64,000 bases of DNA, taken from assembly GCF_006175995.1 (NCBI RefSeq), contig NZ_VDMB01000001.1:1-64000 (forward strand). The letters are read 5' to 3'. The stretch comes from Desulfobotulus mexicanus (GTDB taxonomy: Bacteria; Desulfobacterota; Desulfobacteria; Desulfobacterales; ASO4-4). This document shows positions 7,846 to 63,656 of the stretch, piece after piece; within the stretch, counting starts at the first letter, position 1; each line of letters starts with the position of its first letter. Below the pieces are notes generated by a model. That model saw only the letters and a list, made by a program, of their open reading frames with translations, made no database searches and had not been told where the DNA came from. The translations under genes and the position numbers were made by a program.

Positions 7846-8881
7846 ATGAAAATGTACGGGAATAAAAATATGCCAGTTGAAAAAGGTGGGCCTGCGGATG
7901 CCAACAAAGATGGTCGAATCACAGCAGCGGAGTTGTCTGTCTGCCATTTCAAGGGAAATGCAGGTGCAGGAATCCTCTGAAATCAGTACAAGGATCACGC
8001 AGCAGGGAGACAGTGTGTCAAGGCGTGTGGCCGCAGAGGTGCATCTCAAGAATGGAAGACAGATGCAGCGGGCAAGGCGTACCCACCATGCCCTGCTTAA
8101 TGGGATACACTATGTGGCCATGGAGGTGGATATAAGGCCCGATGCGGATATTCTTGCCGGACGCATGAGATCCATCTGGATTTCTGAGGGTCTTTCCATG
8201 CCAGCCCATCTTTGCTTTGACGGGCTGAAAGCCCTGACATCGGGTCCCCTTGCCGTGCGTTTGATAAGTCTTCTTTCATCCCCCCATGGGGAAGGGGAGA
8301 GGGTGCTGCCCCTTTCTTTGGAGAGAAAGGATGGGCTATGGATTCTAAGCCTTTGCAGGGAGTCTTTACCCCTTGCGGAAGTAAGGGGACTATTTGATTT
8401 TTCCGTATATGGTTCGGGTAGAAGCAGGCTTTTCATGGAAGCCCCTTCGGGAAAACGCCTTTCCAACCGTCTGCGACACGGAGAGCAGGTGGTTTTCCGC
8501 ATGGACGGTCTGCCATCTTCCGGATGGTTTTCCCTTTTCAATCTCTATCCCGACGGCAGGGTCAGTGTGATGGAAGACAACCTTGCCGCAGGGCCGGGCA
8601 GTCTCAGGGTGCCGGAACAGGCCTGGGATTTTTTCACCAACGCCATCCTTGAGCAGGGCGTGGCCCAGTTGGACACCTACATTGCCGTATTTACCAGAGA
8701 GCCTCTGGAGCTGGTGCGTTTCCGGCGTCTTGGGGATGTGGAGGGCCTTGTTTCCGGGGAGGGCAGTTACGGTGCCCACAGTCTGACTGCCGCTGGAATC
8801 AGCCTTTGCCAGTTTCCTCTTCCGGTGTTGCGTATACTCCATCCTTGTTGTGATCTTCGGTGCCCACCAGGGCAGGGTTGA
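7846..8881 (+). pseudogene. Frameshifted EF-hand / DUF4384-like gene remnant
   Basis: The frame opening at 7846 encodes an EF-hand loop, [13 protein letters not shown], at 7897-7935 and then stops. The frame one base over continues from there for about 300 residues to 8881. The switch point holds a tandem TGTCTGTC at 7934-7941; removing one TGTC joins the frames as ...AAELSAISREM. The C-terminal 120 residues (RHGEQVVFRMDG, YPDGRVSV, FTREPLELV) resemble DUF4384, a domain often found in caspase-family proteins that also carry EF-hand loops. No caspase or signal peptide remains, so the 5' part also seems lost. The last 28 codons are antisense to ectC. A shortened product starting at the TTG at 7877 cannot be excluded. 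Confidence 0.55.
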
Positions 8882-9206
8882 AAACACAGACAAGGCGCAT
8901 ATCTTCAGAAGCCCTTAAAAGATGGGGCTCATGTCCGTTAAGGGCATACATGGTGCCATCGGATATGGGGATGATTTCTCCGGTGTCCAGTCTTTCCAGC
9001 TCACCTTTGCCACCAACACAATAGACGGCTTCCAGATGGTTTTTGTACCAGATACGGGTTTCCGTACCGGCAAAGATGGTGGTTTCATGGAAAGAAAAAT
9101 CCATGCCATCTTTTGCCAGAAGAAAACGGCGGCTGACCCAGTTGCCGTTGGCAGCCTTTTTATCCCGCTCCGTTCCTGTGATTTCCTTTAAGGTACGAAC
9201 AATCAT
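8799..9206 (-). CDS. ectC: L-ectoine synthase
   Basis: A 135-residue cupin-fold protein starting MIVRTLKEITGTERD. It closes N-gamma-acetyl-diaminobutyrate to ectoine, the last biosynthetic step. Family signatures are visible: ANGNWVSRRFLLAKDGM, FAGTETRIWYKNHLEAVYC, the metal-binding region around Glu and His, and GHEPHLLRASEDMRLVCVFNP. The start at 9206 follows a clear AGGAGAG site; an ATG nine codons upstream is not supported. It is the last gene of the ask-yitT-ectA-ectB-ectC run. The 215-bp gap from ectB carries a hairpin repeat. Its 3' end overlaps the opposing gene remnant by 83 bp. Confidence 0.96.
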   Translation of the reverse strand: MIVRTLKEITGTERDKKAANGNWVSRRFLLAKDGMDFSFHETTIFAGTETRIWYKNHLEAVYCVGGKGELERLDTGEIIPISDGTMYALNGHEPHLLRASEDMRLVCVFNPALVGTEDHNKDGVYATPEEETGKG

Positions 9207-9230
9207 AAATCTCTCCTGCTTCTTTGTAAT

Positions 9231-9412
9231 CACTCAGCACTGTTTATTCAGAAAATTCAGTGTTGTAATTGCAGCATCATCGTACTGCGGCAAGGTACCC
9301 TGGCTATTTGCAAGTGACATTGCAATCGTTTCGGATTGCGTCACGGGCAAATAGCTTGGGTGCCTGTGTATCTGTCTGGCAGATATGGTAGTTGAAAATT
9401 GTGCTGAACATT
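9231..9412 (+). repeat. Interspersed palindromic repeat, copy A (internally deleted)
   Basis: This copy lies in the ectB-ectC gap. The arms starting GGTACCCTGGCTATTTG (9293) and ending GCTTGGGTGCC (9363) form a stem of about 34 bp with a 6-base GTTTCG loop. Flanking sequence (CAGCACTGTTTATTC on the left, GTGCTGAACA on the right) matches the outer parts of the copy at 59174-59511 in reverse orientation. Compared with that copy, about 150 bp of the inner arms are missing, leaving a simple strong hairpin. If the ect genes are co-transcribed, it sits in the mRNA between ectB and ectC. Confidence 0.8.
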
Positions 9413-9421
9413 TACGGTTCT

Positions 9422-10681
9422 TTAAGCAATTTCTCTTTCTTTGAGAACATCCTTGACACTCTCTGCAATGATGGCCAGACCTTCCTTGAGAAGCTCTTCT
9501 TCGATAAGCAGGGGCGGCAGCAGCTTGAGAACCTGCTTTTCGGCACCCGCCAGCTCCATGACAAGGCCCTTTTCAAAGCATTTCTGGGAAATCGCCCTTG
9601 CAATGCCGCGCTCAGGTATTTCAAGTCCCCAGATCATACCCCTGCCGCGGATGTTCGCTTCAAGCTCCGGCCAACTGGTCCGGATGACATCAAGACCTTC
9701 ATACATGAGATTGCCCTTGTACTGTATGGACTCGCTTAAGGCGTTGTTATCCCAGTAGGACAGGGCTTCGGTGCAGGCCACAAAGGCCAGGTTGTTGCCG
9801 CGGAAGGTTCCTGTATGTTCACCGGGTTTCCACTGGTCGAGATCTGGCCGCATCAGAACAATGGCCATGGGAAGACCGCCGCCGATGGCCTTGGACAGGG
9901 TGATGATGTCCGGCTTGATGTCGGCGAACTCGAAACTGAAGAAGCTGCCTGTCCGGCCGTTACCCACCTGAATATCATCAATGATGAGAAGAATATCAAA
10001 TTCACGGCAGAGATCGGAAAGCCCCTTCAGCCATTCTGCGGAAGCCACGTTGATGCCACCCTCGGCCTGTATGGTTTCAACGATGACGGCAGCGGGCAGG
10101 TCAAGGCCTGAGCTTGTATCTTCAATCATTTTCCTCAGGCAGGCCAGAGAATCCACGCTGTCGCCGAAATAGTTTTCAAAGGGCATGAAGCTGACGTTGG
10201 ACCGGCTGATGTGGGCCTCGTCTCTGTAGAAGGTGTTGCCCGTTACGGCAAGGGCACCCATGGAAAGACCATGGTAACCATTGGTGAAGGAAACCACATT
10301 GGAGCGTCCCTTTACGGTTCTGGCCAGTTTCAGGGCGCTTTCCACGGCATTGGTACCCGTGGGGCCGGTGAACTGGATTTTATAATCCATATTGCGGGGC
10401 TCCAGAATGGTGGATGAAAATTTCTCCAGAAAACTCCGCTTGGCTGTAGTGGCCATGTCCAGACCATGGATAATACCGTCGGACTGAATATATTCAATCA
10501 TGGCTTTGGAAATTTTTTCGTTGTTGTGTCCGTAATTAAGGGTTCCGGCGCCGGCAAAAAAGTCAATGTAGTTTTTCCCGTTCTCATCTGTGAGAATGGC
10601 ACCCTTTGAGGTGGCAAAGATGGTGGGAAATGAACGGATATATCCGCGGACCTGGGATTCGAGGGCTTCAAATATTCTCAT
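9422..10681 (-). CDS. ectB: Diaminobutyrate--2-oxoglutarate aminotransferase
   Basis: A 419-residue class III PLP aminotransferase that converts aspartate semialdehyde and glutamate to L-2,4-diaminobutyrate, the first committed step to ectoine. The N terminus MRIFEALESQVRGYIRSFP is characteristic of EctB. Further landmarks are DFFAGAGTLNYGHNN, the PLP-phosphate region TGPTGTNAVESALKLAR, NGYHGLSMGALAVTG, the cofactor Asp in IIDDIQVGNGRTG and the Schiff-base Lys in LSKAIGGGLPM near residue 268. AGGAGAAC precedes the start. It lies between ectA and ectC on the same strand. The 149-bp gap to ectA shows no terminator. Confidence 0.96.
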   Translation of the reverse strand: MRIFEALESQVRGYIRSFPTIFATSKGAILTDENGKNYIDFFAGAGTLNYGHNNEKISKAMIEYIQSDGIIHGLDMATTAKRSFLEKFSSTILEPRNMDYKIQFTGPTGTNAVESALKLARTVKGRSNVVSFTNGYHGLSMGALAVTGNTFYRDEAHISRSNVSFMPFENYFGDSVDSLACLRKMIEDTSSGLDLPAAVIVETIQAEGGINVASAEWLKGLSDLCREFDILLIIDDIQVGNGRTGSFFSFEFADIKPDIITLSKAIGGGLPMAIVLMRPDLDQWKPGEHTGTFRGNNLAFVACTEALSYWDNNALSESIQYKGNLMYEGLDVIRTSWPELEANIRGRGMIWGLEIPERGIARAISQKCFEKGLVMELAGAEKQVLKLLPPLLIEEELLKEGLAIIAESVKDVLKEREIA

Positions 10682-42620: not shown

Positions 42621-42671
42621 AATCTCACGATTTTCAAGCCACAGGAAAATTGCAGGTTACGCAAGTCAGCG

Positions 42672-42691
42672 GGCACCCGTAAAAGGGTGCC
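42672..42691. repeat. Short GGCACCC hairpin in an otherwise empty gap
   Basis: GGCACCC and GGGTGCC flank a 6-base loop. The 42621-42853 interval around it shows no gene I can support. The stem sequence equals the end sequence of the palindromic repeats at 46.2 and 59.2 kb, so it may be a remnant. Confidence 0.4.
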
Positions 42692-42853
42692 ACTGTAAAA
42701 CAGGGCCGTAAAAATCATTCGTAGGTTTATCCTTGTGCCCGCCTTTTGATGGGTTGCCCGTTGATGGACAATGCTGCAGGCCCATGATCCTCCAAATATG
42801 GCTTTCATCTGTAAGACCTGAAAAAACATCACCTGTCTCTGGCGATTCTCCAA

Positions 42854-46164: not shown

Positions 46165-46393
46165 GGCACCCTTGCTGTTTGCAAGTGACATTGCAATCGT
46201 TTCGGATCAGAGCTTTGCAGGCCTGTGCGAAAGAAGCGGCAAACTGTCTGAGCCGACACAAAGGCAGCGAACTTTAGTCTGCTATGGTAATCAAAAAGCT
46301 CATCCTGCCTGTGGCGGCGAGTTTTTGCCGGTTCCGCACAGGGCAAGAAGCTCTAAGAATAAGATTGCGTCACGGGTAAACAGTATGGGTGCC
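46165..46393 (+). repeat. Interspersed palindromic repeat, copy B
   Basis: A 229-bp imperfect palindrome between queA and tgt. It aligns along its full length with copy C (59221-59448) in the opposite orientation: for example TTTGCAGGCCTGTGCGAAAG, CCTGCCTGTGGCGGCGAG and GATTGCGTCACGGG are shared. The ends read GGCACCC...GGGTGCC. The arms fold back on each other around an AT-rich centre near 46280. There is no coding potential. The flanks differ from copies A and C, so only the hairpin part is conserved here. Confidence 0.85.
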
Positions 46394-46488
46394 TCAGCAC
46401 CTGCCGGGCAGCAATTGCCGATACCAAACGAAAATGGCAGGAAATAATGAGGTATGTCTGTAACCGTTTTTCCCCTTGAACCTGTTGA

Positions 46489-58970: not shown

Positions 58971-59066
58971 TTTCTTGTCTCCTGATATGTCATTCATTGT
59001 TTGAATGCAGCCTTATGGCAAATTCGTCATATCAGGGCAAGGGTTTTATTGAATGGTTGGTTTACG

Positions 59067-59162
59067 GGCAGGGGCAAGGCCTGGGCTTCGGGAGCCTCAG
59101 CCACCGGCTTTCGAAGCCCAGTACGGGGCCGCACACAGACGCAAGGTCTGCTCCTGTTAAGT
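59067..59162. repeat. Imperfect palindrome beside repeat copy C
   Basis: GGGCTTCG and CGAAGCCC flank a 21-base centre, and outer arms GGGCAGGGGCAAGG and GCAAGGTCTGCTCC are loosely inverted. The right end resembles 14240-14260. It lies directly next to the larger palindromic repeat and may be an independent short element. Confidence 0.45.
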
Positions 59163-59173
59163 TCTTTTGTAGT

Positions 59174-59511
59174 TGTTCAGCATAATTTTTCAGGTACCAT
59201 ACCTGCCAGACAGATGCACAGGCACCCAAGCTATTTGCCCGTGACGCAATCTTATTCGGAAGCTTTTTGTCCTGTGCGGAAGCGGCAAAAACTCGCCGCC
59301 ACAGGCAGGGTAAGCTTTTTTATTACTATAGCAGGCTTGAACACGCTGCCTTTGTGGCGGCTCAGACAGTTTGCCGCTTCTTTCGCACAGGCCTGCAAAG
59401 CTTTGGTCCGAAACGATTGCAACGTCACTTTCAAATAGCCAGGGTGCCTTGCAACACTTCGAATCTGCTGCAATTACAGCATTAGAATTTCAGAATAAAC
59501 TGTGCTGAACA
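59174..59511 (-). repeat. Interspersed palindromic repeat, copy C (full length)
   Basis: The longest copy. The core 59221-59448 begins GGCACCCAAGCTATTTG and ends CAAATAGCCAGGGTGCC, and the arms continue pairing inward through CCTGTGCGGAAGCGGCAAA / TTTGCCGCTTCTTTCGCACAGG and GCCGCCACAGGCAG / CTGCCTTTGTGGCGGC to an AT-rich loop near 59315-59340. Outer ends TGTTCAGCATAA and TGTGCTGAACA are also inverted. The 13-bp direct repeat GTTCTTTTGTAGT at 59161 and 59517 flanks the element, like a target-site duplication. No protein is encoded. Relatives are copies A and B. Confidence 0.85.
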
Positions 59512-59546
59512 GTCACGTTCTTTTGTAGTCTCACAGACCCATCCTT

Positions 59547-62500
59547 TTAGTCCCTGTCTATATCCAGACGCAGCCCCGTATCTGTAGGAGGCTTTGCCTT
59601 TTTCTGCCATAGCTCCCCTGTTGTCAGGGCCTGCCATGCCCACGGCGCCCAGGAAAGAATCCGGCCAGCCAGCCAGAGTGCCCAGGCAAACATCAGCACA
59701 CGCCAGAAAAAGATGGGCATGGTGAAAACGCCTGCTGAGGGCAGGAGGCCATCACTGCGGTCTGCCGTCCAGCGCAGAAGCCCTGTGTGGGAACCGTTGC
59801 CTGCAATCTGCATATCTGGGATGCCCAGCAGACCGTTGCGGACCCCTTCCAGAAGCAGCAGGGCCATGGTGACAAGCAAAAGCCCCAGACCACACTGCCA
59901 GAGGTTGTGCAGCGATCCCATGGGAACGTTTTGCCTGCTGCGCCAGTCAAAGATGAAAAAGCCTGCACCCAGAATCAGCACGGCAAAGGGGGAAAGGGAA
60001 ACGATTCCCAGACCCAGAAGCAGCCAGTCCCTTGTTCTGAGTGGTGATTTTTCCGGTCTGAAGCTGAGCAGGGCCGTTGCCGTCAGCACCAGAAAAATCC
60101 AGCCCCAGATGCGGACTCCCGGTCCCAGAAGCGGACCATAGGTCCAGAGCAGCCACTGATTTCTTTCCAGATGGATTTCCTGGGTAATGTTGGCCGTGGG
60201 CATGGCCATGTCCATTTTTGGCATGGAAAGAATGCGTGGCCGCCACAGGTTTTTTTTCTGCTCTTCCATTTCCCATATCAGCTGAATTCTGTGGGTGCCC
60301 GGTGTCAGGGGAAGCAGCAGGCCTTCTTTTTCTCCGGGAAGGGGCTGCTGTTCTCCGTTGATGCGGATTTCTTTGATTATGGCCCCTTCCGGATTCTTTA
60401 CAGGATGCAAAAAGGCCTTGCCGGAACGGATCGCTGCTTCCAGGGTTAGTCTCCTGCGCTCCCTGCCGTCTTCAAGTTTCAGAAAAACATTCTCCGCCGT
60501 GCGTGTGGGACCGGGTGCAGGCTCCATGGCAGTGAGGGAAAGGATCAGGCTTTCACCGGGAAGGGGCGTCCATACAAGGCCTCTGCCCGAGGGTCTTGGT
60601 GCCGCCGGGGTTCCGGACCATGAAAGGTGTCGGTCCGTGTCTCCGTGTACTTCCCATGTTTCTGAAAAAAGAAGGGTTTCTGCTGCAAAAAGCTTAATGC
60701 TGTCTTCTTCGGGAAGGCGGCTTTCCCAGACAATGCGCTGCCTGTGGCGGGGGATGGGAATTTCCACATGCCCGTCCCGTACGGTAAAACCATCGCTGAT
60801 TACCGTTTCTCCGGAGATCAGGGGAATGCGCATACTGCCGGAAACAAGGCCTGGATAGGGTCGTATGACTTCGGTTCTGACCTGCCAGTAGCGGTCTCTG
60901 CTTATGATTCTTTTCACCTGCACAAAGGCTTTCAGTTCCGGGGATGCATCTTCAGGGATGTCTTCGGCTCTGCTGTGTGCGGGCGTGAAGGTGAGGCTGC
61001 CACGCACCCTTCCTGCGGCATCCAGTCCTTCAATGTTCCAGTCCGGCGCTTTAAGCATGAGGCTGTCCGGCGGCATGGGAAAATGTATGCGGAATCGTTT
61101 TTCCGGCAATGCCCCTTGAATGCGGAGCTTGTGGATACCCGCTTCCATGGCAATGTGATTTTTTCCCTGCCAGAGCAGAAGGGAGGTTTTTTCCCCGTTC
61201 AGCAGGGTTTCAAAGGAAGGAAGGCTTTCATCGGTGGCGGGTATGGGAAAGGCCAGCTTTTTACCCGCATGGATTTCCATTTCCAGGACAAACCCGGGAT
61301 TTTCTGCCTCGGGATGATCCAGTACAAGGCTTGCGGGACCGCTTCTGGCACAGTGGGGATCACAGAGGTTTTCCGTCTGTAGTCTTTTTTTTAAGTCTTC
61401 CAGCATCCATTCCGGAGGAAATTCAGCCCTGACTCCCGTGGCGGGAATGAAAACCAGAAGAAAAAGAAGGGAGGCCGCACTTTTACCCGCAGAGGATATT
61501 TTATAGGGGAATCCAGCAGCCAGACGGCCCAGAACCAGCAGGACAAAGCCGACCCGGAGCAGAGCCGCAAGGGAAGCCGCCAGGGGCGGTATCAGATAAA
61601 AAACAAGGCTGTGGGAAGATCCGCTAAAGCCAGTATGTACAGGGATGCTCCGCCATTGCCAGGCAGGAACACCGGGACCTGTCTGGGTGACGGCCGGGGC
61701 TTTGGGCGCAGGTTCCTGCGCATAATATTGTTTTCCCGTATCCTGTCTGCTGAAGGCCTGCATGGGGGCTTCTCCTGCCTCCATGGCTAGGTTGGGAAGG
61801 GCATCGGCTACCATGGCTTTTTCCTGTGTCATGGTTTCGCTTCTCAATGTTCTGAGGGGGGCCTGATGGCCTGTCCTTGTGGAAGGGGCCTTATCCAGCC
61901 TTTCCAGCTGGGGATAGATGGCCGTACGGATCTGATCCGCAGCATAGGGGAGGGCCACAAGGCCTGCCGTAAGGAGCAGAAAAACATGGATTCCCGAGAG
62001 AATCACAAGGCCTGCGGGTGGTATGTTTTTCCGGGCAAGGGCGTATTTTCCCAGGGCTGCCGTGGCCGCCAGGCCGAACCAGAAGAAAAGGGGCAGGGGA
62101 AAGCTGTGGTGGAAGAGGGCGATGGCAAGGCCGAAGCCAATGCCCCAGGTCATGCCCCAGATACGCAGGGCCACGCCGGAGAGCATGACCAGAAAAAAGA
62201 GATCCAGCAGGGTCCATCGGGAAGTAAAGCTGTCGTCCATGGCTGTTTTTCCGCCCTGTATGCCTGCCAGATGCCAGCCCGGAGGCAGATGCAGGGTGAT
62301 ATCCGTCTGCTCATGTCGGTGCTGCCATCCCCCAGAAAGGGGAGTGCCGGAGAGTTTTTCATCCATGCGGCTTAGGGCCGTAAGGGAAAGGGGACCCGGT
62401 GGCAGTTCAATGCCCTGCAGGCTGTCCTGCAGGGTGATCATGCGATCCTGTTCATTGAGGGTGATGAGACCCGGCAGGAGCGGGCCTTTTGTATCCATGC

Positions 62501-63656
62501 CCATATAGCGGCGGGTATTGAGGGTACCCGTGAGCTGATCCCGCACCGTGGCTCCTTTTCCGTCAAAGTCCAGCCAGATGTCCCGTTTCAGCCTGATCCT
62601 GTCCTCTGCGGGCTGCTGCCGGGTTTCCCGGATGGCAAGTCCGGGGCTGGCATCTGCTGCCATACGGTAGGCGGCATGGTGTTTCCAGGCATCGGGCAGT
62701 GGGGTCTGTCTGGGATCTACGGACTGCCCGCCCATAAGCTCTGCGGCCCTCAGTTCCGGTGCTGGAACAAAAACCCAGAGTTCGTCTTCCGTGCGACCGG
62801 GCAGGCGTAATTTTGTATCCGATCCGGATATCAGGTGCACAAGGCGGATGGTGAAATTGCCGGGCCGAAGATCCATGATAAGGCCCTCTTTCATACCCGG
62901 TTTCAGGGGCAGGGGACTGTCCACAGATACAAGGGAGGCGTGTTCCGGCATGGACACGGCCAGTTTCTCCTGACGGGGGCTTCCTGAAACAGCCAGCTGT
63001 ATCAGTGTTTCCAGTTCCAGAGGGTGACCATCCTTAAGCTTTCTGAAGATGCGCATCTCCGTCTGGCCCTGATTTGTTTCTTCTCTGGCAGCCGGAGGGG
63101 CCTTCAGCCAGAGCCTGCCCCTGGCATCCCTTTGCAGCTTATGGAGGGTTTTCTGGTTTTTCTGCACCTGTATCAGGGATATTTCATGGGGCAGGGCCAG
63201 GGTGTCGGGAAGGGTACGCCATGCAAACTCACCTTTTATAATATGGCTCCCCGGCTCAAGGTAGATGACGGGCCGGTTTTTTTCCAGAAGCACCGGCTGT
63301 TCCCTTCCATTGACCATCACCCTTCGGGGCATCTCTGCGGCGTCTCCGGGAAGGGGTACGGCACCTTCAAACAATACATCCCAGCCAATGGTAAAATGGC
63401 CGCCCTTTTCTTCCAGTTTAAGGCTAAGGGGACCGGGCCAGATACAGAGGGTTTCAGCCGGATTTCCAGCAGTCTGGGGACAGAAGCTTGCTCTGTCCTG
63501 TTTTTGCACCCATGGCACCCAGGGTTTCAGGGCTTCCGGGATGTTTTCCGGGCTGCGGGCCTGCACACCGGATAAGGGAAAAAAGACAAGCATGGAAAGG
63601 GAAAGGCAGAAAAGGAAGATGGGGAAAGGGCTTTTTTGGGACGGGCAGGTGTGCAT
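59547..63656 (-). CDS. Very large exported/membrane protein, function unknown
   Basis: A 1369-residue protein that I do not recognise by name; similar very large hypothetical proteins are known in Proteobacteria. Signal peptide: residues 1-34 (ends GVQARS). The chain seems two-fold repeated: strand-rich periplasmic modules near 35-460 and 770-1200 share the pattern C..C, VNG/LNGE, LEPG-H-I-G. Hydrophobic helix groups lie at about 475-590, 695-760 and 1220-1345. A low-complexity A/P/Q-rich linker is at about 600-680. AAGGAG precedes the start. It is divergent from nothing; the partial gene at 63815 is on the same strand upstream. Confidence 0.75.
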   Translation of the reverse strand: MHTCPSQKSPFPIFLFCLSLSMLVFFPLSGVQARSPENIPEALKPWVPWVQKQDRASFCPQTAGNPAETLCIWPGPLSLKLEEKGGHFTIGWDVLFEGAVPLPGDAAEMPRRVMVNGREQPVLLEKNRPVIYLEPGSHIIKGEFAWRTLPDTLALPHEISLIQVQKNQKTLHKLQRDARGRLWLKAPPAAREETNQGQTEMRIFRKLKDGHPLELETLIQLAVSGSPRQEKLAVSMPEHASLVSVDSPLPLKPGMKEGLIMDLRPGNFTIRLVHLISGSDTKLRLPGRTEDELWVFVPAPELRAAELMGGQSVDPRQTPLPDAWKHHAAYRMAADASPGLAIRETRQQPAEDRIRLKRDIWLDFDGKGATVRDQLTGTLNTRRYMGMDTKGPLLPGLITLNEQDRMITLQDSLQGIELPPGPLSLTALSRMDEKLSGTPLSGGWQHRHEQTDITLHLPPGWHLAGIQGGKTAMDDSFTSRWTLLDLFFLVMLSGVALRIWGMTWGIGFGLAIALFHHSFPLPLFFWFGLAATAALGKYALARKNIPPAGLVILSGIHVFLLLTAGLVALPYAADQIRTAIYPQLERLDKAPSTRTGHQAPLRTLRSETMTQEKAMVADALPNLAMEAGEAPMQAFSRQDTGKQYYAQEPAPKAPAVTQTGPGVPAWQWRSIPVHTGFSGSSHSLVFYLIPPLAASLAALLRVGFVLLVLGRLAAGFPYKISSAGKSAASLLFLLVFIPATGVRAEFPPEWMLEDLKKRLQTENLCDPHCARSGPASLVLDHPEAENPGFVLEMEIHAGKKLAFPIPATDESLPSFETLLNGEKTSLLLWQGKNHIAMEAGIHKLRIQGALPEKRFRIHFPMPPDSLMLKAPDWNIEGLDAAGRVRGSLTFTPAHSRAEDIPEDASPELKAFVQVKRIISRDRYWQVRTEVIRPYPGLVSGSMRIPLISGETVISDGFTVRDGHVEIPIPRHRQRIVWESRLPEEDSIKLFAAETLLFSETWEVHGDTDRHLSWSGTPAAPRPSGRGLVWTPLPGESLILSLTAMEPAPGPTRTAENVFLKLEDGRERRRLTLEAAIRSGKAFLHPVKNPEGAIIKEIRINGEQQPLPGEKEGLLLPLTPGTHRIQLIWEMEEQKKNLWRPRILSMPKMDMAMPTANITQEIHLERNQWLLWTYGPLLGPGVRIWGWIFLVLTATALLSFRPEKSPLRTRDWLLLGLGIVSLSPFAVLILGAGFFIFDWRSRQNVPMGSLHNLWQCGLGLLLVTMALLLLEGVRNGLLGIPDMQIAGNGSHTGLLRWTADRSDGLLPSAGVFTMPIFFWRVLMFAWALWLAGRILSWAPWAWQALTTGELWQKKAKPPTDTGLRLDIDRD

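Follow-up and report, generated by a model that had tools for sequence, protein, structure and literature searches.

The first 64,000 nucleotides of a contig from the sulfate-reducing bacterium Desulfobotulus mexicanus, analysed here as one stretch (the window), hold at about 59 kb a long palindrome, and the question that this locus raises is whether the palindrome belongs to a transposed element and, if so, which transposase moved it. A sequence-only reading had described it as one of three related copies of a non-autonomous, MITE-like repeat distinct from REP and ERIC, and had left the parent family unnamed. In the following, G000 is the genome of the window, G001 that of D. alkaliphilus ASO4-4 and G002 a third Desulfobotulus genome.

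Boundaries and parts of the element

The alignment of thirty copies from the window genome yielded GTAAYTRTTCAGCACA as the consensus end and a target duplication of 8 bp, not 13 bp. The 13-bp direct repeat formerly seen around the 59-kb copy is made up of the exact 8-bp duplication GTTCTTTT and a chance GTAGT. On the left, these five bases already open the element, whose consensus has GTAAT there; on the right they are part of the host sequence and occur beside the orthologous insertion in D. alkaliphilus as well. The limits of this copy, placed before at 59174-59511, were corrected as given in Table 1, and those of the 9-kb copy, previously 9231-9412, were likewise moved outwards. For the copy reported at 46165-46393 the start was retained, while the end was extended and the copy was recognised as a core only. 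The GGCACCC...GGGTGCC pair, which had been taken for the ends of the family, is really an internal stem (59222-59228/59442-59448). In contrast, the proposed folding into a single long hairpin was borne out, with -152 kcal/mol for the 59-kb copy and z = -10, none of 100 dinucleotide shuffles being as stable. The only open reading frame of at least 80 codons across this copy, 59001-59438, enters from the flank.

Table 1. Coordinates of the 59-kb element, its parts and the other family members in the window
Feature	Position	Strand	Basis or remark
Left 8-bp target site duplication GTTCTTTT	59161-59168	+	Identical to 59517-59524; D. alkaliphilus site also occupied
Left terminal inverted repeat GTAGTTGTTCAGCATA (consensus GTAAYTRTTCAGCACA)	59169-59184	+	Alignment and end-pattern search
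Complete non-autonomous element, 348 bp, shell A1 + insert C	59169-59516	+	Alignment with other full-length copies
Hairpin arms (long imperfect palindrome; the GGCACCC/GGGTGCC stem lies inside)	59215-59453	+	Fold; 38-copy consensus fold
Insert C, ~155-bp hairpin apex	59253-59407	+	Absent from short copies and from the D. alkaliphilus ortholog
32-nt stretch GCTCAGACAGTTTGCCGCTTCTTTCGCACAGG	59360-59391	+	Identical in 38/38 top-scoring copies, 70/83 of the wider set
Right terminal inverted repeat, TGTGCTGAACAGTCAC on the + strand	59501-59516	-	
Right 8-bp target site duplication GTTCTTTT	59517-59524	+	
Short-form element, shell only without insert C, ectB-ectC spacer	9226-9415	-	Target duplications differ by one base
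Core-only copy (inner shell + insert C), queA-tgt spacer	46165-46399	-	
Family fragment, 69 bp	42657-42725	.	All collected elements compared with contig 1 by BLAST

The 9-kb copy lacks the ~157-bp hairpin apex, and its target duplications, GCTTCTTT at 9218-9225 and GGTTCTTT at 9416-9423, are near-identical, with a difference of one base. It is neighboured by ectB (9422-10681) and ectC (8799-9233); the corresponding spacer of D. alkaliphilus is short and has a terminator-like hairpin in it, without the element. In the 46-kb copy we found neither recognisable terminal repeats nor a target duplication, and its outer flanks were matched to no known shell; the queA-tgt site of D. alkaliphilus consists of unrelated spacer DNA.

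Copy number and genomic setting

As had been claimed, the three copies (~9.2, ~46.2 and ~59.2 kb) are relatives of one another, but the number of copies was underestimated, both in the window, where the 69-bp fragment had been missed, and in the genome. In the window genome a search with the 16-bp end, allowing up to two mismatches, returned 102 forward and 102 reverse matches (1 and 2 with a reversed-pattern control), so that there are about 100 elements of this family. The same search gave 207 + 219 matches in D. alkaliphilus (0 and 3 in the control) and 22 + 19 in G002 (0 and 2). All figures other than these end-pattern totals rest on sampled contigs. On contig 1 (455 kb) family DNA occupies 31 places and 1.9% of the sequence, and in 1.62 Mb sampled from D. 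alkaliphilus, including some contigs picked for having hits, 180 places and 3.3%. A DNA search of 194 genomes of the order matched the three Desulfobotulus genomes only, there were no DNA matches to the family in the plasmid and phage collections, and Rfam gave none at E <= 1, all of which is consistent with the earlier exclusion of REP and ERIC.

The insertion targets are A+T-rich and intergenic: under a simple longest-ORF gene model, the 125 copies placed on long contigs all fall between genes. Around them, convergent gene pairs are over-represented (34 of 125 copies, against 48 among 367 gene pairs), and gene 3' ends are favoured (86 vs 46). The elements fall mostly into size classes of 185-480 bp and have no transposase gene. 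Classes of ~240-305 bp in D. alkaliphilus were set aside, several of them having N gaps and being partly assembly artefacts. Runs of N fall exactly in the hairpin cores of some D. alkaliphilus copies (for example L058, G001:C2:81883-82130, and G001:C7:56284-56546), which suggests that the palindrome interrupts short-read assembly; the hairpins of the family appear to cause assembly gaps.

Evidence for mobility

Among 149 elements with paired ends, the 8-bp target duplication is exact in 63 and has at most one mismatch in 90. The comparison of empty with filled sites, which had been put forward as a check, identified four clear empty orthologous sites with one target copy (L025, L008, C1:342116 and G1C7:12407) and a fifth, L002, where the single target copy is found to within one base. 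Other insertions are common to both species (L024, L010, L009, C1:141682 and the 59-kb site, which is filled at the same target by a 185-bp form without the apex in D. alkaliphilus), whereas the 9-kb and 46-kb copies are not present in D. alkaliphilus. In a tree of 74 copies the long branches belong mostly to the window genome, and a younger group is dominated by D. alkaliphilus. Since some insertions are common to the sister species and other sites are cleanly empty in one of them, with a single copy of the target, the Desulfobotulus repeats are a mobile family, with insertions both older and younger. The insertions common to both species could also be accommodated by an ancient, immobile repeat family spread by recombination or duplication, but the exact 8-bp duplications and the species-specific insertions speak against it and the precise empty sites with a single target refute it, so that we consider this explanation extremely improbable. 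The view of a transposed, non-autonomous, MITE-like element is therefore upheld, on the terminal inverted repeats, the 8-bp duplications, the lineage-specific insertions with empty sister sites, the older insertions common to both species and the lack of a transposase gene.

The parent transposon

IS66 has been reported to produce 8-bp repeats (PMC11946415), and the 8-bp duplications, together with the GTAA start of the ends, suggested IS66 as the parent. When 389 genomes of the order were searched for the exact end, the only genome outside Desulfobotulus with eight copies, all at contig breaks, was G096, which belongs to another genus. There it belongs to a repeated element with GTAACTATTCAGCAC[A/G] at both ends, four left/right end pairs of which are flanked by an exact 8-bp duplication. 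At its right end the element encodes the last ~40 residues of an IS66 transposase, with a match to positions 356-386 of NF033517 (E 2.3e-5); the element was read from its ends and its interior is unassembled, hence the transposase is seen as a C-terminus only. Similar ends, GTAACTATTCAGCT, are found in plasmid IS66 elements, one from Oceanisphaera and one from Marinobacter, the latter with the exact duplication AAAACTTT. In addition, one end of five D. alkaliphilus copies is extended by 58 bp, the target being duplicated exactly beyond the extension, and their new end, GTAACTTCTGAGTAAC, resembles that of a resident IS66 element, GTAACTTCTCAATAAG.

Several candidates were rejected in the course of this search. 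Six further genomes of the order gave one to three hits each to the exact end but no convincing end pair around a transposase; G168 yielded a ~139-bp end pair only, and the hits in those six genomes were read as chance. Locus L110 in G096 has just one end, next to unrelated genes, and is not a full element. An IS66 parent in the same genome was also discarded: no intact IS66 transposase (PF03050) was detected in G000 or G002, and the one match in G001 belongs to an element with a different 25-bp end. The window genome has a decayed IS66 transposase fragment on contig C2 (120758-120955, L219), interrupted by a stop codon and without recognisable ends.

Since this decayed piece is the only one in the window genome, the action of an IS66-type enzyme as the mover of these elements is something that we infer, albeit strongly, from sequence comparison. 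The failure to find a parent in the same genome lowers our confidence in the parent assignment and leaves the MITE status as it was. The Desulfobotulus element is like IS66 in its GTAA start, its 8-bp duplication and the end that it has in common with the G096 element, and unlike it in lacking a transposase gene and in beginning with GTAA(C/T)T and not with the canonical GTAAGCG; the IS66 elements that we examined in this order and on plasmids likewise start with GTAACT. A further point against the overall reading is the slower change in the inner stem than in the shell (see below), which is unexpected for a wholly passive sequence. The same MITE family could instead have been moved by a non-IS66 transposase since lost, the likeness of the ends being due to convergence, and such a history would fit both the ends without the GTAAGCG start and the failure to find, in any of the three Desulfobotulus genomes, an intact partner whose ends are identical. 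However, an identity of 15-16 bp with the end of an element that duplicates 8 bp and encodes an IS66 C-terminus is unlikely to arise by chance, and the plasmid IS66 elements have 13 bp in common with the ends, so that we regard a lost non-IS66 enzyme as quite unlikely. In our view, IS66 is the best candidate for the parent family, and the Desulfobotulus repeats are most probably MITEs mobilised in trans by an IS66-type transposase.

By this mechanism, an IS66-type transposase would recognise the GTAACT-type ends in trans and the element would be inserted at an 8-bp staggered cut, the repair of which would yield the duplication. The hairpin between the ends would be a stack of stem modules, the outer shell A1 or A2 and the inserts B and C, which may be lost from, gained by and exchanged between copies. 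The copies of the window genome are now probably immobile for lack of a partner enzyme.

D. alkaliphilus also has a different repeat, of ~57 bp (CAACCCACGCCGTGTTACGGCG...AAGTTACTCAGAAG), at L149 (~16518), L164 (~3225) and about 30 other places. It sometimes recurs nearby, and in about ten MITE copies a fused unit of it forms a new right end. A tandem array of this repeat was considered, and TRF found none.

The modular hairpin core

On the outside the copies have a shell, more often A1 than A2, that encloses nothing, C, B, or both. The two shells are 43-49% diverged from each other, whereas the arms of C are only ~4% apart. In D. alkaliphilus the inner stem has fewer singleton changes than shell plus loop (3.9 vs 11.9 per kb, p = 9e-8); the difference is weak in the window genome (10.4 vs 15.6 per kb, p = 0.025), and the signal weakens with both genomes pooled (p = 0.05). 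In the consensus fold, built from 38 copies, double-sided (compensatory) pair changes number 6, against 2.3 in shuffles, only one of 500 shuffles reaching 6. Absolute invariance of the 32-nt stretch did not hold in the wider set (Table 1), which leaves slower change only. Independent mobility of B and C is unsupported at this sampling, as nearly every hit in ~2 Mb accompanies shell sequence.

This pattern could be explained by constraint on the stem, by exchange between copies, or by both. One reading, which we hold as tentative and rather unlikely, is that the core (inserts B and C) may act as a unit of a second level, moving or being converted between shells that are unrelated, with its stem under selection; it would then be a hairpin, selfish or of use to the host, inside an IS66-type MITE. 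Compatible with the MITE reading, and in our judgement unlikely, is also that the host maintains the core for a function such as RNA processing, transcription attenuation or protein binding, transposition having merely spread it; a host function has been proposed for some ERIC- or Correia-like repeats. The slower change of the inner stem in both species, the near identity of cores inside strongly diverged shells, the excess of double-sided changes and the preference for gene 3' ends would all agree with such maintenance. On the other hand, many copies have no core, among them the ortholog of the 59-kb copy in D. alkaliphilus, the presence of copies differs freely between the sister species, the singleton signal is weaker when pooled, and exchange between copies could produce an identical pattern. 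The family offers a clean test case of whether conserved palindromic MITE cores are selected or just exchanged, and the modular, conserved core is the feature most worth pursuing.

Relation to known repeats

ERIC, REP/REPIN and Correia are intergenic palindromic repeats that fold into hairpins, and Correia is also regarded as mobile. By comparison with their general description, the Desulfobotulus element is longer, has an 8-bp duplication and carries IS66-like ends. It shares with MITEs the ~16-bp terminal inverted repeats, the fixed duplication length, the short and gene-less body, the many copies and the empty orthologous sites, and differs from the usual MITE in having no parent with the same ends in its own genome, which is usual though not strictly required. 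Among bacterial MITEs derived from insertion sequences are MITEPsy1 (PMC3189936) and the IS982-derived MITECca01, which reaches up to 169 copies and 3.5% of its chromosome (PMC9769881), a fraction similar to that in the sampled D. alkaliphilus DNA. In contrast to such MITEs, the Desulfobotulus family is probably of IS66 type, with no intact parent found, and inside it a long hairpin is put together from modules, the two shells having cores in common.

In the literature searched we found neither a described MITE for the genus Desulfobotulus nor a paper describing an IS66-linked MITE family. We see here an unnamed, mobile MITE family, ordinary in kind and of probable IS66 parentage. It makes up ~2-3% of the sampled Desulfobotulus DNA, nearly all of it spacer, and so it shapes operon spacers, here those of ectB-ectC and queA-tgt; its insertions can be dated between sister species.

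To the right of the 59-kb element, the window encodes at 59547-63656 a protein of 1369 residues without a Pfam or NCBIfam match, whose sole relative in the genome-contig scan, 87% identical, is in D. alkaliphilus.
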